Source: Methylophilus rhizosphaerae (lineage in GTDB: Bacteria; Pseudomonadota; Gammaproteobacteria; Burkholderiales; Methylophilaceae). From it: DNA of 64,000 nucleotides. Below are positions 966 through 19,180 of the stretch, piece after piece. The notes beneath the pieces are model-generated. The model made no database searches. It worked only from the letters and a program-made list of their open reading frames with translations, and was not told the origin of the DNA. A program made the translations under genes and the position numbers. The stretch covers positions 186,001 to 250,000 of the forward strand of contig NZ_FNFX01000003.1 of the NCBI RefSeq assembly GCF_900100975.1, in the 5' to 3' direction. Each line of letters starts with the position of its first letter. Positions within the stretch are counted from its first letter, which is position 1.

Positions 966-1473
966 CCATTATCATGTACTCAGTTAGTTGAACTACTCTA
1001 GTAATGCTTTTGCTGTCGGAAATGTTTTGTTTGGTAATTAATACGTATGTAATACCGCCTTCAATAGCTACTTCATAAAAATGATATCCAAAAAAACCTA
1101 ACAAAGGATTGAAATGATAAGCATGTGAATTTTGCACAATGAAAAAGAAGATAACCGCAACGAATGTTAAAACAGGCATGCTAATAACTTTGTTAGTTTG
1201 ATTGATTAGTGGCAAAAGATAGACGAGCAAAAATCCCACTACTTCTTTATCAACAGTCTTGACGGTTTTAATTTTCACAGGCAGCTTTTCAAGTTTCTTG
1301 CCAGATAACCAGATAATTCCATAACAAAGTAATGCCATCAATACTGCAGCAGAAAGGTAATTTAACCCTGCACGATAATCCCATTGTTGGCTGAAACTCA
1401 CAAACCAAAGAGTGAGAAAAATTGGAGCCATGGATGTTGCAACTAGAGATAATTTGGCAACTTTATTCAGCAT
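949..1473 (-). CDS. kwaA: KwaA-like membrane protein, Kiwa antiphage system
   Basis: This 174-residue protein is the putative membrane sensor of the Kiwa pair. Four hydrophobic segments are visible, at about residues 8-28, 38-57, 78-92 and 99-116. They are followed by a conserved-looking NPLLGFFGYHFYEV motif (about 122-135) and a short soluble tail. Size, four-helix layout and this motif fit KwaA, and the overlapping downstream gene is KwaB-like, which is the diagnostic arrangement. It lies 88 bp downstream of tcmP on the same strand, so it could belong to one four-gene transcript or have its own promoter in that AT-rich gap. Known KwaA is slightly longer (about 200 residues). An unrelated small membrane protein remains possible, but the pairing argues against it. 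Confidence 0.7.
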   Translation of the reverse strand: MLNKVAKLSLVATSMAPIFLTLWFVSFSQQWDYRAGLNYLSAAVLMALLCYGIIWLSGKKLEKLPVKIKTVKTVDKEVVGFLLVYLLPLINQTNKVISMPVLTFVAVIFFFIVQNSHAYHFNPLLGFFGYHFYEVAIEGGITYVLITKQNISDSKSITRVVQLTEYMIMDVTHG

Positions 1474-1561: not shown

Positions 1562-2821
1562 TCATATTAAGAAATGCAACTGAGGATTTGGCAAAATAAT
1601 GTCGCTAGGTTTAGGTAAAGTTTTACTCCCCCTAAGCTTACCATCTGGTGACATAACCAGTATTTCTCTACGAACATCGTAACTTTGGAAAGCTTCTAAT
1701 ATATCAGCCGATCTAGCAGGAGTGTAGTTGGCTTGTTCAATTTGAAGGTTTTGAAAGGTTATTCCGTCGCGGTGATGGTCGTGAATCAATTTGGGGATTT
1801 GGCAATATAAATTATTTAATGTTGAGGTCCTTGCATCAGCATTAAAACCAAAGAAATCTGAGTCTGCTTTTAAGTTAAACCCTCTCAGATTGTACATATC
1901 CAACCCTGAACTACCATAATGGACGAAATGATTTCCATGTAACCAATGAATATCAACCATCACATTTCTTGCAGTAATATTTCTAGAAAGATGCACTAAC
2001 CAATAGTCGCCGTGGCCGCCAGTCGACCTGATATAGAATGTTGTGTGATGTCCATGTCCGTCTGGAAAGCAACCGTTAATTAGATTTTTATGTAATATTG
2101 CCTGCGCAGCAAGTCTCCAATCGTGAGGTCTGGTATCTTTGTTATGAAGACCGCTGTCTAATAGCGGTTCTATGTTAAAGCCAGTATTCCGATGAAAGTC
2201 TCTTAAGTTTTTCTCGTTTAAATAATTTAATAACGCATCTACATTGAAGGTTAATAAAATTTCTGCACCAGGCAGTTCAGAAAAAATGTGATTGATTTGG
2301 CTAAATGGAACGTCCGAATAGCCATATTGATCAAGTAAAAAGAATGATCTTGCAGTTGCTGATCGTTTTTTGATGTCGTCTACAATCTCAAAAACTTTTA
2401 ATTTGAAGTCGTCATTAAAAAGATAGATGTCACTATCGTTATTTACTCTCTCAGCATATCCTTTTTCAATCAATGTGCTATTCAATAATTGATAGCCAGC
2501 TTTGTCCTCTTCTACAAAGTAAAATTTCGTATCTAATAAAAACGGTTTTAGCCTTATGCTTTGAGCTTTAATAGCTGCCTCATTGCAGGCTTCTAGGATA
2601 TTAATTGGAGAACCGTACACTGTCTCCGAGCCCCAATCCGCTCTATACTTGCCGCCCCCCGCAAAGCCATCTACTACTGCTAATTTGAAATTATCAATGC
2701 GTACATTTCTTGTAAGTGTTTCAATGTATGCCTTGAGGTAGTCGCGAAGAATTTTGTGCTTAATGACACTGTGATAGCCGATCAGAGGTTGATTCTTGTA
2801 ATCATATTGATTTTTTGGCAT
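1562..2821 (-). CDS. tcmP: Three-Cys-motif partner protein TcmP
   Basis: The 419-residue protein resembles the TcmP family, named because its members sit next to a three-cysteine-motif protein, as here. The N-terminal third contains LAVVDGFAGGGKY (about residues 46-58), a glycine-rich acidic loop resembling motif I of Rossmann-type methyltransferases, followed by SPINILEA and LKPFLLDTKFYFVEED. The middle has FFLLDQYGYSDVPF, a strand-plus-Asp segment typical of these folds. No signal peptide or membrane segment is seen. The start lies 21 bp downstream of the DUF5131 stop on the same strand, implying co-transcription. The reaction is not known to me; a nucleic-acid or nucleotide modification is only an inference from the fold-like motif. 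Such pairs occur in phages and mobile islands, consistent with the tRNA-fragment boundary to the right. Confidence 0.8.
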   Translation of the reverse strand: MPKNQYDYKNQPLIGYHSVIKHKILRDYLKAYIETLTRNVRIDNFKLAVVDGFAGGGKYRADWGSETVYGSPINILEACNEAAIKAQSIRLKPFLLDTKFYFVEEDKAGYQLLNSTLIEKGYAERVNNDSDIYLFNDDFKLKVFEIVDDIKKRSATARSFFLLDQYGYSDVPFSQINHIFSELPGAEILLTFNVDALLNYLNEKNLRDFHRNTGFNIEPLLDSGLHNKDTRPHDWRLAAQAILHKNLINGCFPDGHGHHTTFYIRSTGGHGDYWLVHLSRNITARNVMVDIHWLHGNHFVHYGSSGLDMYNLRGFNLKADSDFFGFNADARTSTLNNLYCQIPKLIHDHHRDGITFQNLQIEQANYTPARSADILEAFQSYDVRREILVMSPDGKLRGSKTLPKPSDIILPNPQLHFLI

Positions 2822-2842
2822 TTAGTTTGTTTAGAACAATTG

Positions 2843-3571
2843 TTAAAGTTGAACAGGCATTTCATCCCAAGTACGACCTCTTAATTCCCTACCGTTAGCA
2901 CTTTTGGCTCGCCGCTTTCCATCAGCACCCCAACCACCCCATTGTTTAAAGAAAAAAGCAACTCCAGCCTCGTCGCATTGATCTCTAATTGATTCAACCC
3001 ATTCAATTTGCATCGGACGCGCATTAGGGCCGGATTCCCCACCAACGATTACCCAATGAATTCCCTCTAAGTTAAGCTCTCCAACGTCCTCAAGTAAGGG
3101 TTCCACAGACAGAAAGCGAATTTGTGCGGGCACCTTACGTAAATGGTCTATTCTCTCAACCCCGTACTTTTTATCTTCCACCGACACCCCAATCCATGCG
3201 TTCTCTGGTGGAGTGCGATCTGAAAAGTACTCAGCTAATCTTTCAGCGCGTTTGGTTAAAATTTGAAACTGATGTTGCGTAGCTTTATTAATTGTCTCGA
3301 AAACTTTGTCTATAAATTCAAATGGTACATTTTCATGGAATAAATCTGACATCGAATTTACGAAATACACTGTTGGCTTCTTACGGTTCAAGGGATCATT
3401 CAATCTATTAGGCAGTAGTGTCAAAGTGAAACCGTTTTCGTACCCAGGTGTTCCCATTGCTTTGAGCCTACCGGCCATGGTCTCTGCATAGCAGTGTTTA
3501 CAGCCAGGCGAAATTTTGGTGCATCCAACTACTGGGTTCCAAGTTAACTCTGTCCATTCTATTTTGCTCAT
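2843..3571 (-). CDS. Phage Gp37/Gp68-like three-Cys protein (DUF5131)
   Basis: The 242-residue protein belongs to the DUF5131 (phage Gp37/Gp68) family. Near the N-terminus it carries C17-x6-C24-x2-C27 in the context TWNPVVGCTKISPGCKHCYAE, which resembles the iron-sulfur cysteine cluster of radical-SAM enzymes although the spacing is not the classical CxxxCxxC. Further family landmarks are YFVNSMSDLFH (about 69-79), ILTKRAERL, WIGVSVED, FLSVEPLLEDVG, WVIVGGESGPNARP and FFFKQWGGW, in that order. It is the first gene of the minus-strand island and is directly followed by its usual partner tcmP. Its 5' side faces the attachment-site remnant at 3.8-4.0 kb. The biochemical role is unknown to me; iron-sulfur chemistry is inferred from the cysteines. 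Confidence 0.85.
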   Translation of the reverse strand: MSKIEWTELTWNPVVGCTKISPGCKHCYAETMAGRLKAMGTPGYENGFTLTLLPNRLNDPLNRKKPTVYFVNSMSDLFHENVPFEFIDKVFETINKATQHQFQILTKRAERLAEYFSDRTPPENAWIGVSVEDKKYGVERIDHLRKVPAQIRFLSVEPLLEDVGELNLEGIHWVIVGGESGPNARPMQIEWVESIRDQCDEAGVAFFFKQWGGWGADGKRRAKSANGRELRGRTWDEMPVQL

Positions 3572-3941
3572 ACCAATATCGCTTTTTACTTCTGAATACG
3601 TTTCTGAACCATATTACTAGTTATGATTAATAACAAGTTGAACATGAGAATATTGCTGCAATTTTTAATATAACTCATTGAAAATGGTGAGTTTAATACA
3701 AACTTAGCACTTTATTTTCGATTATGTTCACTTAATGAACTTGAATGATCGGATCGGTACAGTTTCGGTAATTCCAAACTTATAACTCATTGAAATGCAT
3801 CGAAGTTTGAGCAGAAATTCGGAAACAATCAATTAGCAAGGTTCGGTATTAAGATCGGTATTGTTCAGGCAAGGTTTTGAGATGTGGGAAAAGAATTAAA
3901 AATCTTTGACTTACAGAGCAACGACCACGAAAGAAATCTGT

Positions 3942-3987
3942 ACTCATAATCCGTTGGTGCTGTGTTCGACTCACAGAGGGGCCACCA
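3942..3987 (+). other. Attachment-site remnant: 3' fragment of tRNA-Met(CAT)
   Basis: From ACTCATAATCCG to the terminal CCA the sequence reads as the 3' part of a Met-type tRNA gene. It has anticodon loop CTCATAA, the 3' half of the anticodon stem, a perfect T-arm (CTGTG TTCGACT CACAG, 3959-3975), the acceptor strand AGGGGCC and ACCA. The 5' half, which should start with GGCCCC and carry the D-arm, is absent; AT-rich element DNA abuts at the anticodon loop. This is what a tyrosine recombinase leaves at the far end of an element integrated at a tRNA anticodon loop. The intact tRNA gene should lie to the left, beyond the window. It is not a functional tRNA. Confidence 0.8.
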
Positions 3988-3995
3988 TTTACAGA

Positions 3996-4025
3996 GACTC
4001 AAGGTTAACGCCTTGGGTCTTTTTT
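3996..4025 (+). terminator. Terminator of the original tRNA-Met transcript
   Basis: GACTCAAGG (3996-4004) pairs with CCTTGGGTC (4011-4019) with one wobble, across a six-base loop, and runs into a T tract. It follows the tRNA CCA end by 8 bp, as expected for the native tRNA terminator carried on the chromosomal side of the attachment site. Confidence 0.8.
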
Positions 4026-4057
4026 GTTTTTTGGTGAGTAAACTACAGGAAAGATAA

Positions 4058-4159
4058 ACAGAAATTGTCCAGGAACCTACAGTTCAGCCGTATGGTATTC
4101 GAGATTGTGCAGTTCGCGATCCGGCAGGTAATTTAATTCGTGTTCAGCAATTGCCTTGA
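4058..4159 (+). pseudogene. C-terminal remnant of a VOC/glyoxalase-family gene
   Basis: This short open stretch encodes PTVQPYGIRDCAVRDPAGNL followed by IRVQQLP and a stop. It matches the C-terminal signature of VOC-superfamily proteins (glyoxalase/bleomycin-resistance type): a Tyr-Gly before a strand, then RDPxGNLIR. No start codon or upstream domain is present; an in-frame stop lies just before it at 4055-4057. It is therefore a decayed tail, probably cut when an element inserted at the tRNA gene next door. From 4160 to about 4440 I see no further gene. Confidence 0.6.
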
Positions 4160-4449
4160 TCATTTAAATCTCAGGGCATGCGACTATGAGTTGCAGTTCA
4201 ACAATCATGGGCTAGCTGATTCCGACTGAGGTCGTTGGCAGTTATGTTGGCTTGGCGTGGCATTATGGGCAAGATATCTTTTTGGATATTCAATGAGTAT
4301 TTTTGTGTAATTTTTGATTTAGAGGGTACGCTGGTCGACGTGAAGGTCTATGCAATCAAGCCTGTTTGGATTGACTACCGCAGCTGACCAAATGTATCCA
4401 AGTTGTTTAAATATGATAAAAATATCCAAAATGGTTAATATGGTTTTAG

Positions 4450-4468
4450 AATGAGAACCATTCTCATA
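4450..4468 (+). promoter_or_regulatory. Fur box upstream of fecI-like gene 1
   Basis: ATGAGAACCATTCTCAT is an imperfect palindrome with ATGAGAA and TTCTCAT arms, resembling the Fur consensus. It lies about 20 bp before the start of the ECF sigma gene at 4487. Iron-dependent repression of the sigma factor is the expected FecI-type control. Confidence 0.7.
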
Positions 4469-4486
4469 ATGGTATTTGCAACTTAA

Positions 4487-5002
4487 ATGCAATTTAAATC
4501 AGTGGATAATCTAGCTGTAACTGCACTCTACTCAAATCATCAGGGTTGGTTAAAAGAGTGGTTACGTAAGAAGCTTGGCAATACATCAGATGCAGCAGAT
4601 CTTGCGCAGGATACTTTTGTACGCATCATTAAATTGCAAAATGCTGCTGAAATACAGGAGCCTCGTACTTATTTAGCAACAGTTGCTAAATCAATTCTGA
4701 TAGATTTTATTCGACGTAAAACCCTTGAACGAGCTTATCTTGAAGCCATCGCGGAAATGCCTCAGGTTTATGTGCCATCTCCTGAAGAACAATTGGTTGT
4801 CATGGAAGCATTGTTTGAAATGGATGCAATGCTGAATGGTTTGGGGCCGAAGGTTAAGCAAACATTCATGCTTTCGCAATTTGATGAGTTAAGTTACACA
4901 CAAATTGCTGAGAAACTAGATATCTCCCTCCGCACTGTCAATAATTACATGGCTAAAGCAATGGAGCATTTTTGTATGTACAGGCTGATGAATAGGGATT
5001 AG
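4487..5002 (+). CDS. fecI: FecI-type ECF sigma factor
   Basis: This 171-residue ECF sigma factor would direct transcription of the receptor gene downstream when its FecR partner signals substrate binding. Region 2 spans about residues 10-78 (SDAADLAQDTFVRIIKL and AKSILIDFIRRKTLERAYL, the -10 contact helix). Region 4 spans about 112-165, with the helix-turn-helix YTQIAEKLDISLRTVNNYM. It is the first gene of a plus-strand set fecI-fecR-receptor-PepSY and overlaps a Fur-box promoter region. The fecR start follows its stop by 2 bp, so the two are co-transcribed. A second, only distantly similar fecI-type gene is at 14371-14889 on the other strand. The specific iron chelate cannot be read from the sequence. 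Confidence 0.9.
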   Translation: MQFKSVDNLAVTALYSNHQGWLKEWLRKKLGNTSDAADLAQDTFVRIIKLQNAAEIQEPRTYLATVAKSILIDFIRRKTLERAYLEAIAEMPQVYVPSPEEQLVVMEALFEMDAMLNGLGPKVKQTFMLSQFDELSYTQIAEKLDISLRTVNNYMAKAMEHFCMYRLMNRD

Positions 5003-5004
5003 TC

Positions 5005-5985
5005 ATGCTTAAAGCACTCCACTCACCTAGTCCAGACGAAGTGAATGCCATTCGTCAGGCGGCAACTTGGTATTCAATTCTCTCCTCAGAAAGTGCCAAG
5101 CCAAGTGACCGTGAAGCATGGGAAAGTTGGCGCACAGAAAATGTACTTCATGAACAGGCATGGCTAGAAGTTGAAGCAGTGAAAGCGCAATTTTCGAAGG
5201 TTAACAATGAAATATCGTCCTCAGTCTTGAATAACGCACCTTCAAAATCACGCAGAACGATATTACGTGGATTAGTCGTTTTAATGTCGGTGGGTTCCGC
5301 AGGGCTTCTTTCATACAAGATAGCTCCCTGGGAAGAGTGGACGGCAGATTACCATACTGCGACTGGTGAAAGGATGGACATCAAGTTAGCGGATGGGTCC
5401 ATCTTATCCATCAATACCAGAACATCAGTCGATGTGATTTTTGATGAAAGTCATCGGAGAGTTAAGTTACATTCAGGAGAAATCTTTATCACGACTTCAC
5501 CCGATCCTAACAAAATTTCCAGACCTTTTATTGTTGAAACTAATCACGGCGAAATTTTGGCTTTAGGCACGCGTTTCAATGTAGTTGTTTCTAGTCATAA
5601 ATCATCCGTTTCTGTTTTTGAGAAGGCCGTTAGGGTTAAACCAAGGAGCTCATCCTCTCTTGGGGTAGTTTTAAATGCAGGTCAAACAATCGACTTTACT
5701 TCCAATTCTTTCAGCCAAGCTCAGCGCTACAATCCCTTGTCAATTTCCTGGAAATCGGGAAGCCTCACTGTGATTGATATGCCTTTAGGCGAACTCGTTG
5801 AAGAGCTTTCACGATATAGGCCGGGCATTTTGAGATGTGAGGAAAAGATAGCGCTTCTTAAAGTATCAGGTACTTTCCCGATTGATGATACTGACCGTGC
5901 ATTGCTGGCAATTAAGAATGCATTGCCCGTGAATATAGTGAGTCGCACCCGGTATTGGATAACTATCGTATCAATTACTGCGTAG
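5005..5985 (+). CDS. fecR: FecR-type anti-sigma/signal transducer
   Basis: This 326-residue inner-membrane regulator partners the FecI sigma encoded just upstream. The cytoplasmic N-terminus has the FecR N-terminal signature (DUF4880): AATWYSILSS at about residues 19-28, then REAWESWRTENVLHEQAWLE. One membrane segment lies at about 87-105 (TILRGLVVLMSVGSAGLLSY). The periplasmic part has the FecR core (GERMDIKLADGSILSINTRT, VKLHSGEIFI, ILALGTRFNV) and ends with a secretin/STN-like segment at about 250-320, which would meet the receptor's N-terminal domain. The gene order sigma, FecR, receptor with N-terminal signalling domain is the classical cell-surface signalling layout. Length fits the family. 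Confidence 0.88.
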   Translation: MLKALHSPSPDEVNAIRQAATWYSILSSESAKPSDREAWESWRTENVLHEQAWLEVEAVKAQFSKVNNEISSSVLNNAPSKSRRTILRGLVVLMSVGSAGLLSYKIAPWEEWTADYHTATGERMDIKLADGSILSINTRTSVDVIFDESHRRVKLHSGEIFITTSPDPNKISRPFIVETNHGEILALGTRFNVVVSSHKSSVSVFEKAVRVKPRSSSSLGVVLNAGQTIDFTSNSFSQAQRYNPLSISWKSGSLTVIDMPLGELVEELSRYRPGILRCEEKIALLKVSGTFPIDDTDRALLAIKNALPVNIVSRTRYWITIVSITA

Positions 5986-6070
5986 AAAAATCCCCACCTT
6001 TGCACTTTGCCATTTGCTTGTTCGTCCCCCATTGAACAACTTCTTTTCAGGTTATTCAGCAGAGGGAAAT

Positions 6071-8506
6071 ATGCATCATCTTCGTTCAAGCAAGCTATTA
6101 CCGGTCAATCGTCATACATTTCAGCTGCCTCCTCTTCGAATTGCAATTTCAATTGCGTTCACCGGATTATCAGTTGCTCATGCCTCAACGGCTTTGGCTG
6201 CAGATCAAAACATACAGCAACAGGTGTATCAGTACAATATTGATGCAGGCCCATTAGCTGAGGTCATCAATTTATTTGCCAGTGCTTCAGGCCTGGCGCT
6301 AACTTTCGAGGCAGATACCCTCAAAGATATCCAATCTCAGGGGCTGCATGGTCAATTCACTATTCAACAAGGATTTTCAAAACTTCTGAGTGAAAATGGA
6401 CTGCAGGCTGTAAAGAGTGATGATGGCACTTACATTATCAAGAAGCGCAGCAAATCATCTAGTACAGAAAAGCCAGCTACGTTACCGGAGGTCGCTGTTA
6501 AATCAAAGGCTGATTCTGGGAGTGGCCTGCAGCCAGCCTATGCCGGCGGTCAGGTAGCTAAAGGCGGGAAAGCAGGGTTCTTGGGTAATAAAAGTATCAT
6601 GGACACGCCATTTAATAGCACCAGTTACACATCGCAAACAATTCAAGACCAGCAAGCGCGAAGTGTTTTAGATGTTGTCCAAAATGATGCATCAGTGCGA
6701 GTCGTATCACCGCAAAGTAATGGCAGTGAGGTGTTCTATATCAGAGGGTTCTCTGTCAGTAATCAAGACATTTCTTTTGATGGCATGTATGGTATTTTGC
6801 CCTACTGGAGAGGGTCAGTCGCTGCGGCCGAGCGTGTTGAAGTTCTTAAGGGGCCTAATGCATTTTTGAATGGTATGGCACCAAGTGGCAGTGTCGGCGG
6901 GGCAATTAACATAGTACCGAAACGTGCTGAAGATACGCCACTCACCCAACTCTCAGCCAGTTATATTTCAGGCTCGAATTTTGGCGGGCAAGTTGATTTT
7001 GGCAGAAGGTTTGGTCCAGACAATAGTGTTGGCATCCGTGTGAATGGCGTTTATCGGGATGGTGATACGAATCGTACTTCTCAGGAGCTGGGCGAGACTG
7101 CAATTGCACTTGATTATCGAGGGGATAGAGGGCGAGCCTGGATTGACGTTGGATACCAGAATCTTCAAACAGATAAAGTTGAGGGATTAATGGGGTTGGC
7201 GACAAACGCATCCGTACCTAGTCCACCATCTGCAAGCAAGTTTTATTACCAGTCCTGGACCACATGGAAGAACGAAACCACTTATGGTGTAGTACATGGT
7301 GAATATGATGTGAAACCCAATTTAACAGTGTATGCGGCAGCAGGGCAACGACATTTCAGAGACAATTATTTATTCCCTTTCGGCTTTGGATTAACTAATC
7401 AAGGAAGCTTCACCGAGGGCTTTGCAAGAGCTTCAAGCTGGTACGATAACACCAGCAGTGAGGTTGGCTTGCGTGGTCAGTTTGAAACTGGATCTGTGCA
7501 ACATCGTGTGAATATTGGCTTGACTAGTTTCAACCAGGATTCCGGTGTTAAAAGTGGTGTTGTACCGACTCATGCGTCAAATATATATAACCCTACGGAT
7601 ATTGCTGAACCAACCATGGCAAGTTTAGGGCATATCCCGAAGACTGGCCAACTGGACCTTGTGAGCATGGCGATTGCAGATACATTGTCGATGTTTGACG
7701 ATAGCGTTCAGTTAATCCTTGGTGCAAGAAAACAGCAAGTCGATGTAGATGCGTGGGATATAACAACAGGTGCTAAAACTGCCAGCTATTCCAGAGATGC
7801 TGTGACACCTGCGGTTGGAGTTGTTCTAAAGCCTGTCAGCAATTTATCCCTGTACAGCAACTATATCGAGGGGCTTAGCCAAGGCCCCGTTCCAACGCCA
7901 ACTGCCTTCAACAATACGCAGGTCTTTGCGCCGATTAAATCCAAACAGTTTGAAGTTGGGGCTAAATATGACTTCGGTAAACTAATGGCAACCATTAGCC
8001 TATTTGAAATCAAACGCCCCAGTGGATTCACTGATCCGGCTACAAATATTTTTGGAGTGGATGGCGAACAACGCAATCGCGGAGCTGAGCTCAATGTGTT
8101 CGGTGAAATTACTGAAAATGTCAGATTGCTTGCTGGAGGCATGTTGCTTGATGCCAAGCAGACCAAAACACAAGGCGGTACATTTGATGGCAATTATGCA
8201 GTCAATTCTCCCAAATTCACTGCAAATATTGGTACGGAATGGGACACATCATTTATTCACGGTTTTACAGTGAATGCACGTGTTGTATATACCGATGCTG
8301 CCTACATCGATGCCGCAAATACGCAAAAGATACCAAGCTGGACCAGGTTTGACTTAGGGGCACGTTATCACTTCAAGGCAGGCGAAAAACCTGTCGTTAT
8401 TCGAGCCAATATTGAAAACGTATTTGACCGTAGTTATTGGATGTCATCCTCTTTATATAGAGGCAATCCGAGAACATTAACACTCTCGGCGACCGTTAAT
8501 TTCTAA
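6071..8506 (+). CDS. TonB-dependent siderophore receptor with STN signalling domain
   Basis: This outer-membrane receptor of about 811 residues imports a ferric chelate using TonB energy. I chose ATG 6071, with AGAGGG just upstream, because it gives a plausible long signal peptide ending near STALAADQ. An STN signalling domain follows (about residues 52-110: NIDAGPLAEVINLFASASGL), then a TonB-box-like LPEVAVKS. The plug has SIMDTPFNSTSYT, GFSVSNQDISFDGMYG, VEVLKGPNAFLNGM and GGAINIVPKRA. A long beta-barrel ends in LSATVNF with the C-terminal Phe. The STN domain couples it to FecR and FecI upstream. FpvA/FecA-class siderophore receptors share this layout. The second receptor in the window (11008-13383) is clearly paralogous. 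Confidence 0.92.
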   Translation: MHHLRSSKLLPVNRHTFQLPPLRIAISIAFTGLSVAHASTALAADQNIQQQVYQYNIDAGPLAEVINLFASASGLALTFEADTLKDIQSQGLHGQFTIQQGFSKLLSENGLQAVKSDDGTYIIKKRSKSSSTEKPATLPEVAVKSKADSGSGLQPAYAGGQVAKGGKAGFLGNKSIMDTPFNSTSYTSQTIQDQQARSVLDVVQNDASVRVVSPQSNGSEVFYIRGFSVSNQDISFDGMYGILPYWRGSVAAAERVEVLKGPNAFLNGMAPSGSVGGAINIVPKRAEDTPLTQLSASYISGSNFGGQVDFGRRFGPDNSVGIRVNGVYRDGDTNRTSQELGETAIALDYRGDRGRAWIDVGYQNLQTDKVEGLMGLATNASVPSPPSASKFYYQSWTTWKNETTYGVVHGEYDVKPNLTVYAAAGQRHFRDNYLFPFGFGLTNQGSFTEGFARASSWYDNTSSEVGLRGQFETGSVQHRVNIGLTSFNQDSGVKSGVVPTHASNIYNPTDIAEPTMASLGHIPKTGQLDLVSMAIADTLSMFDDSVQLILGARKQQVDVDAWDITTGAKTASYSRDAVTPAVGVVLKPVSNLSLYSNYIEGLSQGPVPTPTAFNNTQVFAPIKSKQFEVGAKYDFGKLMATISLFEIKRPSGFTDPATNIFGVDGEQRNRGAELNVFGEITENVRLLAGGMLLDAKQTKTQGGTFDGNYAVNSPKFTANIGTEWDTSFIHGFTVNARVVYTDAAYIDAANTQKIPSWTRFDLGARYHFKAGEKPVVIRANIENVFDRSYWMSSSLYRGNPRTLTLSATVNF

Positions 8507-8512
8507 TTGCCC

Positions 8513-8536
8513 TGGCCTATCCTCAGCGATAGGCCA
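8513..8536. terminator. Hairpin after receptor gene
   Basis: TGGCCTATC (8513-8521) and GATAGGCCA (8528-8536) form a perfect 9-bp stem with a 6-nt loop, 7 nt after the receptor stop. There is no T tract, so it may attenuate or stabilise the transcript rather than fully terminate before the PepSY gene. Confidence 0.5.
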
Positions 8537-8559
8537 GTGTATTTCTGATCAAAACTTTC

Positions 8560-9666
8560 ATGGTTAGTTTGCGCAGTTGGACAATCATTCATCGCTGGTC
8601 TAGCTTACTGTGTACGTTATTCCTGTTGATTATTTGTATCACCGGCTTGCCATTGATTTTTTCGGATGAAATTCAGCAGTGGCAAGACGGATATTCAGAA
8701 ATCTCAAATAGTAAAGTGGTGACAGCACAAGACCTGGATGGAATGGTCAATACCACAAAGCAGATGTTCCCGAGGGAAATATTCAGGTGGGTTGTGTTCA
8801 GTGATCAAGGGCATGTATTGGTTACCATGGCTCCCAGTCTTGCTGCCTCTCCAATGCTTAACCACTGGATGAGATTTGGCCAAAGTAAAACGGATATTCT
8901 TGAAAACTCCCTGAGTAACAAGAAGCAGAGATCTTCGTTTATGAAAATTATTCTGCACCTTCATACCGACTTATTTGGAGGTTTGTCAGGTGAGTTATTT
9001 CTTGGGTTTATGGGCTTGTTATTCTTGGTGGCTATTATTTCTGGAGGCGTGTTATACCGCCCGTTCATGCGTAAACTAGACTTTGGCGCTGTTCGTAAAA
9101 ACAAAGGACGCAGGATCAGATGGCTGGATTTACATAATTTGCTTGGGGTAGCCACAATCATTTGGGCCGTTATCGTTGGTACAACTGGCGTGATTAATGA
9201 GCTATCGACGCCACTTTTTTCACTATGGAGCAAAACAGAAGTTTCTTCTTTGCTGGAGCCTTATAAACAAAAACCGTTACCTTCGAAAACAGTGTCGGTT
9301 GGAAAAGTGTATGAGACCATCCAATCGGCAATGCCCGACAAGGCAATTTTCAGCATCATTTACCCTGATCCAGTTGCGACCAGCGCTCATCATTATATGG
9401 TTTGGGTAAAAGGTAATAGCCCTTTGACCTCCAGGCTGTTTACGCCGCTACTTGTAGATGCTGACACTGGTTTTATAGCAGAAAGAGCCAACCTACCTTG
9501 GTACTTGAAAACCCTGGAGTTATCGAGACCATTGCATTTTGGAGATTATGCAGGGTTGCCACTGAAATGCTTGTGGTTGTTGTTTGACCTGGTCACCATT
9601 GTTGTCTTGTTAAGTGGCCTGTATTTATGGTTTGAAAAAAAGAGTAAGTCACAACTCCCGCGATAG
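8560..9666 (+). CDS. PepSY-associated membrane protein (iron uptake, FsrB/PiuB-like)
   Basis: The 368-residue integral membrane protein is of the PepSY-TM type often found beside TonB siderophore receptors and thought to reduce ferric chelates or handle them at the inner membrane. Membrane segments are visible at about residues 13-33 (WSSLLCTLFLLIICITGLPL), 146-168 (FLGFMGLLFLVAIISGGVLY), 193-213 and 336-358. Family landmarks are an early His in IIHRW, LHLHTDLFGG, WLDLHNLLG and SRPLHFGDYAGLPLK; these histidines could bind heme or metal. It starts 53 bp after the receptor stop and is the last gene of this iron operon. A 9-bp inverted repeat (9662-9670 with 9704-9712) overlaps its stop codon and may be part of the terminator between the converging operons. 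Confidence 0.85.
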   Translation: MVSLRSWTIIHRWSSLLCTLFLLIICITGLPLIFSDEIQQWQDGYSEISNSKVVTAQDLDGMVNTTKQMFPREIFRWVVFSDQGHVLVTMAPSLAASPMLNHWMRFGQSKTDILENSLSNKKQRSSFMKIILHLHTDLFGGLSGELFLGFMGLLFLVAIISGGVLYRPFMRKLDFGAVRKNKGRRIRWLDLHNLLGVATIIWAVIVGTTGVINELSTPLFSLWSKTEVSSLLEPYKQKPLPSKTVSVGKVYETIQSAMPDKAIFSIIYPDPVATSAHHYMVWVKGNSPLTSRLFTPLLVDADTGFIAERANLPWYLKTLELSRPLHFGDYAGLPLKCLWLLFDLVTIVVLLSGLYLWFEKKSKSQLPR

Positions 9667-9809
9667 GGATAAATATGAAACCTAAGCCAGCGTTATCCTG
9701 GGCATCCCTATCCATTCCTTTAATTATTTTGCTGATTAAATTGTTCAAATAATGCGCAAATCTAGCCAGATCATCAGGGCCAACATAGTCCGGGCGTATA
9801 CTGAGAGCG

Positions 9810-10909
9810 TTACGCTGGGCTGAGGTGGAGCTTACGTTTATCCCACCACAAATACAAACCACTCATTAAAACAATCATCGTCACGATATCCAATAACGCC
9901 CAAATGATCTTTAACGTTAATCCGCCGTAATCCCCGAAATGTAAGGGTTGAGAGAGAAGCAGCATTTTTGCATACCAGGGAAGCGCACGCGTCTCGGTCA
10001 ATTTGCCAGTTTCTGCATCAATCAACGCGGGTTGTACTAATTTTGATGTCACTGGCGTGTTGCCCCGCATGAAGACTGTGTAATGATGAGGGCTTGATAG
10101 CCTGCTGCCTGGGTAGCAACAAAGCCAAGGGTCATGTTGGGGATGGCTTTTACTGCTGCGTCCACCGCGACTTGAATTGATCCGAGATGCTGTAAAGGGG
10201 GGGCATTCTGGTATGGTGCAATCATCTGGGCCATCTGGTCTTTTTGCCAGATATTGATGATGACTTTATTGAGTGTATTGATCGTACCAGTGAAACCAAC
10301 CACAAGCACCCAGGAGATCGTGGTCGCCCCCAGGAGATTATGTAAATCCAGCCATGTTGTACGTAGCCCTTTGTTGCGCCTGATGGTGCCAAAATCAATT
10401 CGGCGCATAAATGGTCTATACAGCACAACACCTGAAACGACTGAAATGACAAAGACCAATCCCATCAAGCCAAGAAACAGCATGCCAGGCAAGCCTGCAA
10501 ACATTTCAGAATGCATAAAAAACAGAAAGTATATAAGGCCTTTTGTTGGCTCTGGTGCATCCAGAACTTTTGCAGTCCGTGAGTCGATGACGACAGATTT
10601 TGATGCTTGTGGCGGAGCATCCATATTGGGCGCCATCGTGACAAATATCTGGTTGGGGCTTTCAGCTTCGTTCCATGACATAAAACGTATCACATCATTG
10701 GGCCGTTGTTTGCGAGCCGCTTCTGCAACGTTGTCCAGATTGGCTTTAGGTGTTCCAGGCGGCATGTAAGGTGCTTCAACCTCTCCCCTCCACGCATCTA
10801 TTTCGTCATGGAATACCAGCGGCAACCCTGTGATACACAGCATCAGCAAAAATAGTGTGCAGATGAGGCTGCTCCACTTGTGGGTAAAAGACCAGAATTG
10901 AATGTTCAT
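9810..10909 (-). pseudogene. PepSY-associated membrane protein, frameshifted copy
   Basis: This is a paralogue of the PepSY protein at 8560-9666, broken by a one-base shift. The first part (start ATG 10909, preceded by AAGG; alternative ATG 10930) runs through WSSLICTLFLLMLCITGLPL, HSEMFAG, VVSGVVLYRPFMRR and WLDLHNLLG. Near 10100 it leaves frame and stops at about 10049. The C-terminal part continues in another frame: reading across the shift gives SSPHHYTVFMRGNTP, which aligns with AHHYMVWVKGNSP in the intact copy, and then SQPLHFGDYGGLTLK and the last membrane segment. No long homopolymer is at the junction. It could be a true null allele or a sequencing error. It lies 77 bp downstream of the second receptor, mirroring operon 1. 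Confidence 0.8.
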
Positions 10910-11007
10910 ATTTCGCCTTGGAGCATCCATTCAAAAACCAAAACCTCTAACCTGAATCAGGCTAGAGTTTTTTGGATAACTGCACTTTGAATGCAGGGAA
11001 GCATTAA

Positions 11008-13383
11008 TTAAAAATCGAAGGTTGCTGACAGCATCACTGTACGAGGCATGCTTTGAACTAGATAGCCATCGACCGCTGCCGCCCAGTAACTCTTGTCGAG
11101 AAGGTTCTGAACGTTTAAGCGGAAAGTAGTAGGTACATTGCTCAAGTGCGTTTGGTAGCGCACGCCGGCATCGTATCTCCTCCAGGACGGAATGGATTGC
11201 AGGTTTGCCAAGTCAGCATATTGGCTACTGGTGTAAATGGCACGGGCAGTGAGGGTGAGGCCTTCAATTGCCGGAACATCCCACTCTGCACCCAGGTTCA
11301 TTTGCGTGTGGGGAGCACCAGTGACCTGGTTTCCATCAGTTGCCCCATTGACCGTTTTTGTCTGTTTGCCATTGACAAACACAATCCCGCCCAGTAATCG
11401 TACATGATCCACAATCTCGCCAAAGGTGTTTAATTCGATCCCCTGCGTGCGTTGCTCACCATTTACTGCAAATAAATTTGTCAGGGGGTTAACGGAGCCA
11501 TTGGGGGTTGTTATTTGGTAGAGGCTTAAAGTCGTGGCTAAACGCCCCCAATCAACTTTGATACCTGCTTCATATTGCTTGGATACATACGGGGCGAAGT
11601 TCTGGCCAGTATTATTGCCACCGACCGCAATAGACTGCTGTAGCCCTTCAATGTAGTTAGCATATAGCGATATATTATTCTGGGGTTTAAATACCACACC
11701 CACACCAGGAGTAGTGACAGATTTATCGTATTGGGAGGTGAGTGCGCCAGTGGTCACGTCATAATTTCTGGCAAGGATATTTTGGTGACGTACTCCTAAA
11801 ATGACTTGAAGCTGGTCGTCCAGAACGGAGATGATGTCTGAAACAGCCACTCCCGAAAGCGTTGTGGAACCTGTTTTCGGTACGTGTCCAGCAGAAGCCA
11901 AGCCATCAATACTCAATTTATCAAAGAATATAGGGTCATAAATATTAGAGAATGTCGTCGCGAGCGTAGTGGCCTGAATTCCATTCTCAACCCATAAGCC
12001 TGACGCCGAAACTGACCAGTTATGCTTGAGCGGTCCGGTCTCTGACTTGCCCCGAATGCCGGCATCCACTGTTTTATTGTTGCGGTATAGCGGCCAATAG
12101 ACTTGACGTGCGCCAGTTGCCCCATTTGAACCCGTTAAGAATGCATTAGCGAATAACTCCTCTTCGCGGAATCTGGACAGCCCTAATCCACCATAGGCGG
12201 TTAAATCTGGCGTGATTTCATATTCGCCACGAATAGCCCCAGTCAGCACCTCTGACTTATCATATGACCATTTCTGCTGCCAGTTTTTACCCGAACTAGG
12301 CGGGGATGGAATATTAAAGGTACCTAACAGGTAAGTCGTACGGGAAGGAACGTATGCGTCATTCTTTCTGTAGCCAAAATCCGTAGTCAGTTTTAATTGA
12401 TCGCCGCGATAATCAAACGCCATCGTTGCCATGGTGACTCTCTTTGACTGATCGTTCACCGGCGTATCCCCATCTGAGTAGACCGTATTGACCCGAATGC
12501 CGAACCTGTCATCCTGGCCGAACCGGCGGCTGATATCCGTGGTTACGCCAAGCTGGGATTCGGAAATGTACTGGGTGGTGATACGGGTCAATGGCGTATC
12601 TAACGCGCGTTTAGGAACGAGATTAATACTTCCGCCCACGCCTCCAACCGGCCCAAGCCCATTCAGCAATGCATTGGCGCCAGTGATGACTTCAATCCGT
12701 TCCATGGATTCGACACCGGGCGACATGAGTCCGTACATGCCATTGTAGGCCGCATCCAGGGCTTTGACTCTGTTACCCCTTACGCTGAAATCCATGATGA
12801 CATCATTACTGGGATAGATAGATCTGAAAGCGGGATTATTATCCAGTACATCCGCCATAGACGTTGCCTGCTGGTTTTTAATCATCGTTGAAGTATAGGT
12901 GGTCATGTTAAATGGCGTGTCCATGAAATCCCTGTCACCTAATACACCTACTTTCCCGCCACGTGCTACCTGACCGCCTGCATAAGGTTCTGGCAAATTT
13001 TTGGAATTTTCCTTCGCATCGGTGATTTCAACTTCGGGCAAGGTCTGGGATTTTTCTTCAGGCGCCTTGACGACGGAATAGCCGGCAGAAGTTTTTTGTG
13101 TGACTAACCCGGTACCTTTTAACAGCTTCTCCAGCGCTTGCTCTACACTGTAATTGCCTTTAATCGCTGGCGCATTAAATTTGCTCGCCAGGTCAGAGGG
13201 AAAGGCGATGTTCTCGCCACTTTGCTTGCCCAACGTCAAAATTGCTTGATCAAGTGATTGCGCAGCAATATCCAGATTGCTGGAGGCAGCATAGACATTG
13301 ATGCTGATGGAGAGCAATGCTGCAATGGATAAATGCCTCAGCCTGGCTTGGGCACTGGGTTGGGAACTGAAACGTGCTGTCAT
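11008..13383 (-). CDS. TonB-dependent siderophore receptor with STN domain (second copy)
   Basis: This 791-residue receptor is paralogous to the one at 6071-8506. A signal peptide of about 32 residues ends near SINVYAASS. The STN domain follows (LDIAAQSLDQAILTLGKQSGENI, about 38-100), then a TonB-box-like LPEVEITD. The plug has PYAGGQVARGGKVGVLGD, DFMDTPFNMTTYT, ERIEVITGANALLNGLGP and GGSINLVPKRALDTPL. The barrel ends with VMLSATFDF and a terminal Phe. Blocks around the plug are nearly identical in wording to receptor 1, while extracellular-loop regions differ, suggesting different ligands. It is third in the minus-strand set fecI-fecR-receptor-PepSY. Regulation by its own FecI/FecR pair is expected. 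Confidence 0.92.
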   Translation of the reverse strand: MTARFSSQPSAQARLRHLSIAALLSISINVYAASSNLDIAAQSLDQAILTLGKQSGENIAFPSDLASKFNAPAIKGNYSVEQALEKLLKGTGLVTQKTSAGYSVVKAPEEKSQTLPEVEITDAKENSKNLPEPYAGGQVARGGKVGVLGDRDFMDTPFNMTTYTSTMIKNQQATSMADVLDNNPAFRSIYPSNDVIMDFSVRGNRVKALDAAYNGMYGLMSPGVESMERIEVITGANALLNGLGPVGGVGGSINLVPKRALDTPLTRITTQYISESQLGVTTDISRRFGQDDRFGIRVNTVYSDGDTPVNDQSKRVTMATMAFDYRGDQLKLTTDFGYRKNDAYVPSRTTYLLGTFNIPSPPSSGKNWQQKWSYDKSEVLTGAIRGEYEITPDLTAYGGLGLSRFREEELFANAFLTGSNGATGARQVYWPLYRNNKTVDAGIRGKSETGPLKHNWSVSASGLWVENGIQATTLATTFSNIYDPIFFDKLSIDGLASAGHVPKTGSTTLSGVAVSDIISVLDDQLQVILGVRHQNILARNYDVTTGALTSQYDKSVTTPGVGVVFKPQNNISLYANYIEGLQQSIAVGGNNTGQNFAPYVSKQYEAGIKVDWGRLATTLSLYQITTPNGSVNPLTNLFAVNGEQRTQGIELNTFGEIVDHVRLLGGIVFVNGKQTKTVNGATDGNQVTGAPHTQMNLGAEWDVPAIEGLTLTARAIYTSSQYADLANLQSIPSWRRYDAGVRYQTHLSNVPTTFRLNVQNLLDKSYWAAAVDGYLVQSMPRTVMLSATFDF

Positions 13384-13465
13384 GATTGTCCTTAAAAATA
13401 TCAGCGATCAAATTACCGCTATACTCATAAGGCGATTTGCCAGGGTGAAATTAGCACGTCATGAA

Positions 13466-14320
13466 TTATTTTTTCTGGATTTTGATTTCACCCTGGTCTA
13501 ACCGGGTAACTTTCACGGGAAACATTGAATCCATGCTGTCCAGTAGTTGTTCGATTTTACTGATCTCATAGATGCCGGTGATCAGCATATTCTCTAGCCT
13601 GGGGTCTAGCGCAATAGGGGCTTCCCGGTAGCGCTGAATGCTGTTAATGGCATCTTTCAGCGAGGTTTTGTTGAAGAGTATTTTTCCCGTTTGCCAGGCA
13701 GTGACTTCATCCATGCTGGCTCTGTAAGGCGAGCCAACTTCCAGCTGAGTGACTTTTACGGACTGGCCAGTGACTAACCTCGTTTTGTTGTCACCCGTTT
13801 GCAGTTCAACTTCGCCCTCCATGACGGTCGCAATAAAGCTTTGATCCCATTTTGCGATATTAAATACCGTGCCAATATCCAGTACTATGGAAGTGTTAAT
13901 TGCCACCGTAAAAGGGCGTAACGCATGCTTCACAGTGAAAGAGGCTTCACCTTTTTCCAGATATATTTCTCTTGAGCGAAGTCGATAATTGGCAGTGAGT
14001 GTCGAGTTGGCATTGAGTTGAACCGTGCTGCCATCCGAAAGCGAAATACTGTCATGTTGCGCGTAATTGGTGGTATATGTTTTGCTGGAAATAGTCGGGT
14101 TGACCGCCCAGATACCCAGGGCACAAAAAATAAACGCAGACGTATATTGCAGGGCTTTAAGTCTTTTTTTACGACCGTCCCTCTCCTTATTCACTTCTGC
14201 AAATAGCGCCTCTTTGGATGGAAATCTATTCTGCGCAGCTTTGATATATGGCATCAGGTCCGCAATACTGGATTCAGTTTCGGCGTGCATATCAGGATTT
14301 TGCTGCTGTTGAGTAGTCAT
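13466..14320 (-). CDS. fecR: FecR-type signal transducer (second copy)
   Basis: This 284-residue FecR-like protein is the partner of the sigma factor at 14371-14889. After a soluble N-terminus of about 53 residues there is one membrane segment (LQYTSAFIFCALGIWAVNP, about 56-74). The FecR core follows (HDSISLSDGSTVQLNANSTL, IYLEKGEASF, VLDIGTVFNIA, ATVMEGEVEL). A C-terminal STN-like part comes last (ILFNKTSLKDAINSIQRY, then MLITGIYEI). The N-terminus lacks the Trp-rich DUF4880 signature that is clear in the other FecR. An internal Met at residue 11 is an alternative start. It sits 50 bp downstream of fecI and 82 bp upstream of the receptor. Confidence 0.85.
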   Translation of the reverse strand: MTTQQQQNPDMHAETESSIADLMPYIKAAQNRFPSKEALFAEVNKERDGRKKRLKALQYTSAFIFCALGIWAVNPTISSKTYTTNYAQHDSISLSDGSTVQLNANSTLTANYRLRSREIYLEKGEASFTVKHALRPFTVAINTSIVLDIGTVFNIAKWDQSFIATVMEGEVELQTGDNKTRLVTGQSVKVTQLEVGSPYRASMDEVTAWQTGKILFNKTSLKDAINSIQRYREAPIALDPRLENMLITGIYEISKIEQLLDSMDSMFPVKVTRLDQGEIKIQKK

Positions 14321-14370
14321 CTCATTGAGTGTCGAAAAGTCATCTGTCAGGCAGACATAGTGGAGCCATT

Positions 14371-14889
14371 TTAAATGGATAGCTGTTTCCTGGCTATGGT
14401 GATGTTTTCCAGTGCTTTAATGAAGTGTCGGGAAACCATGTTGGCTGAAATGCCCATTTCTATGGCTATTTCGTGCTGGGGAATCTCATATAACTGGTGC
14501 AAAAGAAATACCTGTCTCTGCTTTTTAGGCAGGGCATCAATCATTTTCTTGATTTGCTCAATTTTCTGCGCAAATTCCAGGGCGGCAGCGCCATCGTAAA
14601 AATGGATACCTTCGCCTTCATCCGATGATAAGCCTGCAATATAATTTCCGCTGACTTTCTCGTGCCGGCTTCTATCCATCGCACGGTTCATGCTTGCTTT
14701 TCTAAGATAGCTCAGTGGCGCTCTTATCTCTGCAGCGGGAGGATTTTCCATGAGCTGGATGCATACGTCATGCACGACATCTTCAGCAAAGTGACGACTT
14801 CCAAAGTGCCGATTGACGTGATTGACTAGCTCACCATAATGTAAAACTAATGATGACAGCAGCCGACTTTTTGTAAGATCAATCTGCAA
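14371..14889 (-). CDS. fecI: FecI-type ECF sigma factor (second copy)
   Basis: This 172-residue ECF sigma factor has region 2 at about residues 14-85 (FGSRHFAEDVVHDVCIQLME and SYLRKASMNRAMDRSRHEK). Region 4 is at about 112-165 and its recognition helix-turn-helix reads IPQHEIAIEMGISANMVSRHFIKAL. It heads the minus-strand iron operon and has a strong Fur box about 55 bp upstream. It shares family motifs with the copy at 4487-5002 but little extended identity, so the two systems are old paralogues rather than a recent inverted duplication. Confidence 0.9.
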   Translation of the reverse strand: MQIDLTKSRLLSSLVLHYGELVNHVNRHFGSRHFAEDVVHDVCIQLMENPPAAEIRAPLSYLRKASMNRAMDRSRHEKVSGNYIAGLSSDEGEGIHFYDGAAALEFAQKIEQIKKMIDALPKKQRQVFLLHQLYEIPQHEIAIEMGISANMVSRHFIKALENITIARKQLSI

Positions 14890-14942
14890 GGAAATTATTT
14901 CTACAAACTAACGTAGTTGAATGGAAGTTGATTTATTATATT

Positions 14943-14959
14943 GATAATGATTCTCATTG
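14943..14959 (-). promoter_or_regulatory. Fur box upstream of fecI-like gene 2
   Basis: GATAATGATTCTCATT closely matches the Fur consensus (GATAATGAT arm with an ATTCTCATT half). It lies 54 bp upstream of the start at 14889, in the promoter region of the second iron operon. Confidence 0.8.
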
Positions 14960-15130
14960 GCAACAAGTTGGATGCAGGAATTGTAAGCCTTGCTATGTTA
15001 AGCTGAGTGATTGAGCAGAATCACTGCAAGAAACCGGCAAACCAGTTCGATCTCGTTTTGGCAACCTCAACCCTGTCACGCATTGCAATGCATGACAGGC
15101 TGGTACTGAAATTTCGGGCATAAAAACGGT

Positions 15131-15334
15131 AAGGTTCGGTATCATGGACGGTCTTGTTAAGACTAAACTTATCCGCAGTGAAAAAAGTGAGCAGTGAAAA
15201 AGGCATTGGAAATTTCTGATTGACTGAGTCACGATCACAAACTCATCTGTACTCGCTCCCTTGGTGCTGTGATCAGCCCACGGAGGGGCACACCATCATT
15301 GATAAAGACCCAAGCTGAACGTGCTGGGTCTTTT
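15131..15334 (+). repeat. Integration-site repeat, copy 2 (decayed tRNA-Met fragment)
   Basis: This is a diverged partner of 3838-4027, with the same blocks in the same order: AAGGTTCGGTAT (15131-15142), CGGTCTTGTT (15149-15158), CATCTGTACTC (about 15244-15254), TTGGTGCTGTG, GGAGGGGC and CACCA. A GACCCA-to-TGGGTC hairpin with a T tract ends it (about 15304-15334). The anticodon-loop and T-arm sequences are corrupted, so it is older than copy 1. It lies on the chromosomal side of the iron-uptake block and marks that block's right boundary. The stretch 14960-15130 holds no gene that I can support. Confidence 0.65.
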
Positions 15335-17831: not shown

Positions 17832-18174
17832 CAGTTCCAAGTTCTTTCCTTGGTCACAGGTTTTGGGCCATAGTCAGCCAACCAGGAGCCGGCAGCTGCG
17901 ACGAGTAATCGCTGCCGGGGTTGCTCTCGCTAGGTTTGATTAAAGAGCGGGTATCTGGCCGAAATTGCTTGCTTTCGATAGAGAGTCAGTCTCTATTTGA
18001 TTGCTGTACGATGTTTTTGCTTCGCGTGAACCTGTTCCTCAGCTGTTGGCCCAGGGTGTTTCTTCCTATCGTCTTATTCCTACGCCAGTATCAGAAATCA
18101 CTTATAACCGCATAAATATATTCACACTACTCTATGCGTATGCCGGAACTGCCGGCTTTTCACAGGAGAAGTAT
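17832..18174. other. Gene-free stretch upstream of DUF2171 gene
   Basis: No gene is supported here. It contains ATTCCTAC (18076-18083) followed by TCAG at 18091, a weak echo of the repeated element described at 26743, 29291, 34996 and 38682. The downstream ATGAT landmark at 54-bp spacing is missing. It probably holds the promoter of the next gene. Confidence 0.5.
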
Positions 18175-18693: not shown

Positions 18694-19180
18694 GCCCAGG
18701 TAAAAAGCTGGCGCAGGCTAGGTTTGCGGGGTCTTAATCGCCATGCTTTATTGAACTATTCCTTTGATTCATCTTTCAAGCAGGTGTCGCAAAAACTGAA
18801 GGTGGGAATGATGACCGTACTATATCAGCGCTTATGATAGGGTTAGAAATGCCACGAAGGAAGAATCAACCGTATAGGTCTGTTGACGAATAGTCATATC
18901 GAGTTTTATTTCAACCGGCCTACCTGTTACGAGTTTCCTGGTGAATGATGGTCAATCGCTTTACACTTGGCAGCAGATACTTAGGGCACAGTGATCCATC
19001 AGTAATCCCGCGCTATGCCCACTTATCAACGTCTGCATCACAGTTGGCAGCAAACAGCGCTTCTAATTAATGGGGCGAAGTAAGGCTTTGCCGCATTGCC
19101 ATCAAATCGTGTTTGGAACAGGGGTAAACAGAACCTGAGCGTAAACCTGCTCAAATTTGTGCATGAGCGGGTAGCAATCG
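18694..19180. other. Gene-free stretch beside Mu-type repressor
   Basis: No coding region, RNA gene or strong repeat is supported in these 487 bp. In Mu-like phages the left attachment end lies on this side of the repressor gene, but I could not recognise a Mu-type end. Confidence 0.4.

Follow-up and report, generated by a model that had tools for sequence, protein, structure and literature searches.

Displaced tRNA-Ile2 fragments mark a probable tandem array of integrative elements in Methylophilus rhizosphaerae

Why does a stretch of chromosome in which ARAGORN finds no tRNA carry the 3′ end of one twice, on the same strand? The stretch (the window, 64,000 nucleotides of the methanol-consuming bacterium Methylophilus rhizosphaerae) covers positions 186001–250000 of contig NZ_FNFX01000003.1 (C7) in a genome of 2.76 Mb. 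The original prediction had described two related copies of an element flank, a 3′ tRNA fragment and a terminator on either side of an iron-uptake (Fec-type) block, and had explained them by successive insertions at one tRNA gene. Both copies lie where they had been placed, in the same orientation (window 3838–4027 and 15131–15334), and a genome-wide search with the whole left copy returns the right one at E 6e-12. We conclude that both are very probably attachment-site scars, displaced as integrative elements accumulated in tandem behind a tRNA-Ile2 gene.

The intact gene that this explanation calls for was found upstream, with the predicted CAT anticodon, GGCCCC start and identical 46-nt 3′ end, 46 kb to the left of the first window copy and directly behind the predicted rpoD gene (Table 1). 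It had been taken for tRNA-Met, and the ARAGORN label ‘Met’ reflects the CAT anticodon alone. Because its full-length match to Escherichia coli genes (82.7% identity; the three rows shown are annotated tRNA-Ile) is joined by C4 and C5 in the acceptor stem, which we take to be the determinants for lysidine synthase on tRNA-Ile2, the gene is best read as tRNA-Ile2 (CAU anticodon) and not tRNA-Met. A 305-amino-acid tyrosine recombinase approximately 8 kb upstream of it is presumably XerC/D. The exact 46-nt tRNA end occurs in 23 stretches from named genomes of Methylophilus, Methylotenera and other Methylophilaceae, the exceptions being two metagenome-assembled genomes labelled only to phylum or class. 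Viral contigs gave 0 exact matches to the 46-nt fragment, and a viral reservoir for it was rejected.

Three 3′ fragments of this tRNA lie on its strand, at C7 positions 168888 (48/48 nt), 189942 (46/46 nt; window 3942) and 201257 (82%; window 15257). As had been described, the left window copy is intact and the right one is corrupted (46/46 nt versus 82% over 39 columns). In both intact fragments, identity to the tRNA begins 1–3 nt before the 7-nt anticodon loop, which agrees with the crossover proposed there. Each part of the two window copies is more similar than shuffling allows: the element flanks score 56, against a best of 39 among 2,000 dinucleotide shuffles (0/2000), and the tRNA-plus-terminator parts score 77, against a best of 33 (0/2000).

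The fragments bound three AT-rich segments, E1 (24.6 kb), EA (21 kb) and EB (11.2 kb), with G+C contents of 41.1, 40.9 and 45.2% versus 50–52% in the chromosome further out (46.6% in the 4.7 kb to the right of the last scar). The expected stack of islands, with Fec genes outside and defence genes inside, is supported, but with three layers rather than two. E1 encodes an integrase (Int_N plus Phage_integrase), a TrfA-like protein, a MobA/L protein, a TrbL/VirB6 protein and several defence-like genes, together with an SBF-family transporter, an LMWPc-family protein and an ArsR-type regulator; these last three are read as arsenic genes. The integrase of EA (C7 positions 183211–184398; Phage_integrase and Arm-DNA-bind_3 domains), presumably of the P4 type, ends 1.6 kb to the left of the window. 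EB has no Phage_integrase match, and its eight cargo genes scanned are Fec-type. A tyrosine recombinase had been expected beside the tRNA; integrases are present, but inside the islands E1 and EA. The window itself, predicted to be free of integrases, has no intact gene but holds a C-terminal remnant to the right of the outermost scar, which hints at a still older, related element.

Do the ends of these segments match as those of inserted elements should? The E1 arm motif ACAAAAGTTCAAC starts once 54 nt downstream of the intact tRNA and again 105 nt before the fragment at 168888, and nowhere else in the 124 kb examined. The right arm common to EA and EB is of another type, and has a relative that also precedes a tRNA fragment in Methylophilus sp. 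Leaf416. When each right-end type was searched against 150 genomes drawn from the family, matches came from 2/150, this genome and Leaf416 (E 1e-5 and 1e-4), and left-end and right-end types agree in all seven segments read (three here, four in Leaf416). The strong pairing evidence is that of the type I end pairs only, one of which is degenerate in its left arm (Leaf416 segment d). Far from its array, Leaf416 also has half of a type I right-end arm as an orphan (C2:596758; locus L112, positions 1500–1564), in a 3-kb locus where no tRNA gene was found.

As a reading of the sequence, tandem accretion is well supported, because the right-end arms of EA and EB match beyond chance. In the most probable mechanism, a tyrosine recombinase would cross over in the anticodon loop; each arriving element would supply a new tRNA 3′ half and terminator, restoring the tRNA, and would displace the older 3′ half outward. 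From the tRNA outward the array would then consist of E1 (integrase, TrfA-like initiator and MobA/L relaxase), EA (integrase and phage defence) and EB (Fec, no integrase). The large elements E1 and EA may have brought their own integrases, and the cargo-only segments (EB, Leaf416 a, c and d, and small cassettes) may have lost theirs or been inserted in trans. We infer that these integrases made the insertions, that the loop was the crossover and that the elements arrived in this order.

Table 1 Features of the tRNA-Ile2 array in and near the window
Feature	Position	Strand	Evidence
Intact tRNA, anticodon CAT	C7:144244-144322	same strand as displaced fragments	ARAGORN
EA right-end arm, related to the EB arm and the Leaf416 segment b arm	window 3838-3941	+	EA/EB score 56, EA/Leaf416 score 104; 0/2000 shuffles each
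Displaced tRNA-Ile2 3′ fragment, 46/46 nt, starting 1 nt before the anticodon loop	window 3942-3987	+	identical to the final 46 nt of the intact gene
tRNA-Ile2-type intrinsic terminator (GACTCAAGG...CCTTGGGTC), EB left end	window 3990-4044	+	
EB right-end arm, diverged from the EA arm	window 15131-15248	+	shuffle comparison; not returned at E 1e-4 with only the EA arm as query
Corrupted displaced tRNA-Ile2 3′ fragment, anticodon loop destroyed	window 15249-15295 (BLAST part 15257-15295)	+	82%, 39 aligned columns
Diverged tRNA-Ile2 terminator copy, TauE/SafE gene next	window 15296-15334	+	
C-terminal integrase remnant, right of the outermost scar	window 18929-19067	+	tblastn versus EA integrase, E 5e-11; 89% (18 aa), 76% (29 aa)
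Partial copy of the ~105-bp unit	window 4185-4264	+	nhmmer, 51 bits
Fec-type operon 1: ECF sigma, FecR, TonB receptor, PepSY_TM	window 4487-9666	+	Pfam
Fec-type operon 2, convergent: PepSY_TM (frame broken), TonB receptor, FecR, ECF sigma	window 9810-14889	-	Pfam, frames
Kiwa defence pair, right part of EA: KwaB 66-965, KwaA 949-1473	window 66-1473	-	PADLOC, KwaB E 1e-82, KwaA E 1e-62
Candidate defence pair, EA right end (PDC-M30A-like and DUF5131/PDC-M30B)	window 1562-3571	-	PADLOC

Comparable arrays were sought in the tRNA-Ile2 loci of 20 relatives (four of these loci are shorter than 6 kb). Ten of the 20 carry at least one further Ile2 remnant, and 10/20 have the tRNA-Ile2-type terminator after the intact tRNA. 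Leaf416 (G003) has four scar-bounded segments, which from their translations we read as copper resistance (a), defence (b), nitric oxide detoxification (c) and small open reading frames (ORFs) (d). Three of the four have no integrase; the integrase of segment b shares 65% amino acid identity with that of EA, placing an EA homologue between tRNA-Ile2 fragments. Across the eight genomes scanned, 10/14 scar-bounded segments lack a Phage_integrase match (the 14 leave out three further segments in genomes G004, G005 and G012).

A comparison with related strains lacking the islands had also been proposed, and the Fec block was found in 0/21 other genomes of the genus. Among up to 13 candidates in each genome, the 11,061-bp Fec-segment query met only partial matches (65–78% identity, up to approximately 2.1 kb), none of them near the tRNA-Ile2 gene; across 40 relatives, no FecA homologue exceeds 48% identity. 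The chromosome of strain 11 (G012) becomes collinear with C7 (from 229.2 kb onward) at 3.3 kb behind the tRNA, preceded by a weaker 50% match to C7 at 225.4 kb that lies 1.8 kb behind it. Some 81–85 kb behind the tRNA of the present genome is therefore missing in strain 11. The MscS gene at window 16734 was rejected as a marker of the ancestral flank, as its homologues in relatives lie at other places.

Several observations weigh against tandem accretion. The match between the right arms of EA and EB is modest and includes a 16-nt gap, and the right copy was missed at E 1e-4 when the genome was searched with the 125 bp surrounding the left flank (window 3821–3945). For EA and EB, end pairing is weak evidence, because the type II left end is indistinguishable from the host tRNA terminator of 10/20 relatives. 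Because EB has no integrase, its own insertion is presumed. Among the 20 relatives’ loci, none has an exactly empty site (that of G012 is nearly empty). The prediction that older fragments lie further out fits the more decayed right copy here but is not universal: in Methylophilus sp. 42 decay is greater in the nearer fragment (81%) than in the further one (100%), contrary to a simple age gradient. Where the variable region ends on the outer side is not settled, because the TauE/SafE gene that follows the last scar is found again in a single locus of the 20 (G009).

Could homologous recombination, or a segmental duplication of the region around the tRNA, account instead for the spread of the fragments? 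The terminator was copied along with the fragment (98% over 95 bp between the copies at 168.9 and 189.9 kb), and some remnants in relatives are full length or start in the D-arm, as duplication would allow. Several fragments nevertheless start 1–3 nt before the anticodon loop, the E1 arm motifs match near both ends, integrases are present, and gene content and G+C differ between segments; we consider this origin very unlikely. The related right arms of EA and EB and the near-identical terminators at their left ends would also fit entry as one composite element that carried the 189.9-kb fragment along as an internal scar, and composite transfer is among the processes described in the parts of PMC5704250 compared. 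Decay has gone much further in the right arm and fragment of EB than in those of EA, as would be expected if their ages differ, and a single entry appears unlikely.

More serious is the possibility that EB never had an integrase, and that it was a cargo-only segment with complete attachment ends which another element’s integrase placed or moved, either in trans or along with a neighbour, as proposed for cis-mobilizable elements (CIMEs). The 10/14 integrase-less segments speak for it, as do Leaf416 a, c and d, which keep type I ends without an integrase in a genome with no close relative of the E1 integrase: of its five Phage_integrase matches, only one lies within segments a–d (in b), and none is close to the E1 integrase (best 23–47% over partial lengths). 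Against it, deletion of an integrase would leave an identical picture, EB has a destroyed right core and the left arm motif of Leaf416 d is degenerate. We regard this history of EB as a real possibility that stops short of being probable. We infer for EB a decayed or cargo-only (CIME-like) state, in which the break in its right core now fixes it in place.

How does the array compare with known systems? Tandem accretion, CIMEs and additive islands of tRNA-targeted cassettes are all already described. As far as the compared parts of the papers cited here go, one close likeness is to the tRNA and transfer-messenger RNA (tmRNA) islands catalogued by Islander (PMC4383910), which share the regenerated tRNA, the displaced same-strand 3′ fragments, the anticodon-loop sublocation and the tyrosine integrases. 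The present array likewise begins with a regenerated intact tRNA and ends with a 3′ fragment on the same strand. Islander can separate the members of a tandem only if every one of them carries an integrase; here E1 and EA have one and EB, unlike those members, has none. The ssrA islands of Dehalococcoides (PMC3146451) are also stacked in large numbers behind one RNA gene, and 15 without an integration module were suggested to be cis-mobilizable, but they use a serine recombinase, a tmRNA target and insertion in the T-loop. CIMEs (PMC5704250) keep attL and attR, lack integration and transfer genes and are stacked by accretion. EB resembles them in having no such genes, as judged from the Phage_integrase scan and its eight Fec-type cargo genes; its left core is perfect, but its right attachment site is corrupted, with the anticodon loop destroyed, and both the function of these ends and its mobilization are putative. 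Tycheposons, in the description given in PMC10872708 only, integrate at tRNA genes by a tyrosine recombinase and carry cargo; one of their targets is called tRNA-Met(cat), which may or may not correspond to the Ile2 gene.

Additive genomic islands have been described with tRNA-targeted gene cassettes in Candidatus Actinomarinales (PMC7771536), with varying gene cassettes in Alteromonas (PMC5217437) and, within the same family as our genome, as flexible genomic island fGI-2 of Candidatus Methylopumilus, behind tRNA-Lys(ctt) with a repeat of 20 nt of the tRNA (PMC10872708). In relatives of M. rhizosphaerae, too, small gene cassettes bounded by direct repeats of part of a tRNA follow tRNA genes (PMC7771536, PMC10872708 for the island type): we counted 46 tRNA remnants across 38 loci, leaving out the cut-off end of the intact tRNA of Leaf416. 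Unlike those islands, the Methylophilus cassettes share one set of scars and one repeated unit between tRNA-Ile2 and tRNA-Lys(UUU), a different tRNA from the tRNA-Lys(ctt) of Methylopumilus (PMC10872708).

Several relatives have remnants of tRNA-Lys(UUU) behind the tRNA-Ile2 gene or the reverse; Ile2 remnants lie behind the intact tRNA-Lys(UUU) genes of G014, G009, G021 and G004. The two tRNAs have the sequence GCGGACTnnTAATCCGT of the anticodon arm in common. A unit of approximately 105 bp recurs in 63 copies across the 38 loci; the 51 copies in loci anchored to an intact tRNA-Ile2 or tRNA-Lys are all on the strand of the tRNA (51/51), and the orientation count rests on these only, as the other 12 have no tRNA anchor and two of their loci were turned by hand. 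Judged from up to five candidates in each genome, the unit is present in 14/150 family genomes, all of this genus. The Lys loci were fetched on account of their hits and the seven array loci were picked by hand, so neither sample is unbiased. In those seven loci, exactly one ORF (at least 70 amino acids) is present in 27/40 between-scar intervals, which have a median length of 866 bp.

The anticodon-loop TAA, kept in 30 of the 46 remnants, ends an ORF of at least 60 amino acids in six. Such ORFs end at 438 of 13,272 other TAAs (binomial P = 4e-4) and at 10 of 267 other TAATCCs; the six are not independent because three of them are PEP-CTERM genes, with the last codon and stop in the remnant (L135:11699–12559, L051:17894–18634 and L126:6762–7598). 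A homologous cassette (75% over 1.06 kb) ends in a tRNA-Lys remnant in G002 and in a tRNA-Ile2 remnant in G009, behind tRNA-Lys in both; its stop codon is inside the anticodon loop, and homology runs through TCATAATCCGTT before the two sequences split. Masking in the shared-cassette search halts alignments at scars, but the unmasked G002/G009 junction shows the switch directly. Two further cassettes are common to G007 and G021 with different neighbours, and these three are all the shared stretches returned under the search filters.

We tentatively suggest, as a reading that we still hold to be doubtful, that single genes without an integrase insert site-specifically at this shared anticodon arm. 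Cassettes would circulate between the Ile2 and Lys loci, some with a stop codon supplied by the loop, with the unit marking the joints and a recombinase acting in trans, and E1, EA and EB would be large members of the same set. The tRNA-Lys locus of the present genome has neither the unit nor an Ile2 remnant. Its own copies of the unit, besides that in Table 1, lie at window 17860–17923 (weak) and at C7 positions 169836, 175777, 457802 and 458609; the pair at 457.8 kb lies near tRNA-Arg(CCG) on the opposite strand and departs from the pattern of units at Ile2 and Lys loci.

The left end of EA carries, just behind the Ile2 fragment and terminator, a tRNA-Lys(UUU) remnant (C7 positions 168978–169039; L011:2978–3039). 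Initially taken for a simple 3′ fragment, it was revised after Rfam aligned it from end to end of the tRNA model, with part of the D-arm deleted (27.3 bits; cut-off, 29), and its sequence identifies it as a decayed near-complete tRNA-Lys. It carries the terminator type found after tRNA-Lys in relatives; the intact tRNA-Lys on contig C9 has a different one.

An integron attC is not favoured for the unit, which does not lie beside intI and for which 47 copies gave no consensus fold (0.0 kcal). Seven intI neighbourhoods of 20 kb held no unit except one weak minus-strand match (E 0.014). Matches to intI above the family cut-off occur in all 17 relatives G001 to G017, and none in this genome or G018. 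Thirteen copies of the unit taken with the terminator fold at −28.0 versus −2.7 for shuffled columns, a fold made up of the terminator hairpin and some unit stems. At gathering level, Rfam found no structured RNA in six sources besides five intact tRNA-Ile2 genes, and a structured RNA was rejected as an identity for the unit.

The shared two-tRNA pool seems to be new: neither it, nor the unit, nor a stop codon in the anticodon loop was met in the compared parts of the literature (PMC5704250, PMC3146451, PMC4383910, PMC7771536, PMC5217437, PMC10872708). Among the publications listed on Methylophilus islands, integrases, tRNA or integrons and on tRNA cassettes, no title describes this locus, which is no proof of absence. 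In this array the build-up of cargo (arsenic resistance, phage defence and iron uptake) at one tRNA gene can be followed one layer at a time, in a genus in which most layers scanned have no recombinase of their own. The recombinase behind additive islands is not named in the compared parts of PMC7771536, PMC5217437 and PMC10872708; if the circulation of cassettes between the two tRNAs is real, a defined core sequence, named cargo genes and cultivable hosts that are easy to handle in the laboratory would be available for finding it.

Two minor observations concern the cargo. EA also encodes a SIR2-type plus short Argonaute pair (L011:6464–9639; PADLOC class I pAgo, E 3e-195) with an adjoining FRG-domain gene. 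In EB, the second PepSY_TM gene (window 9810–10930) is split over two reading frames, reflecting either a broken gene or a sequencing error.

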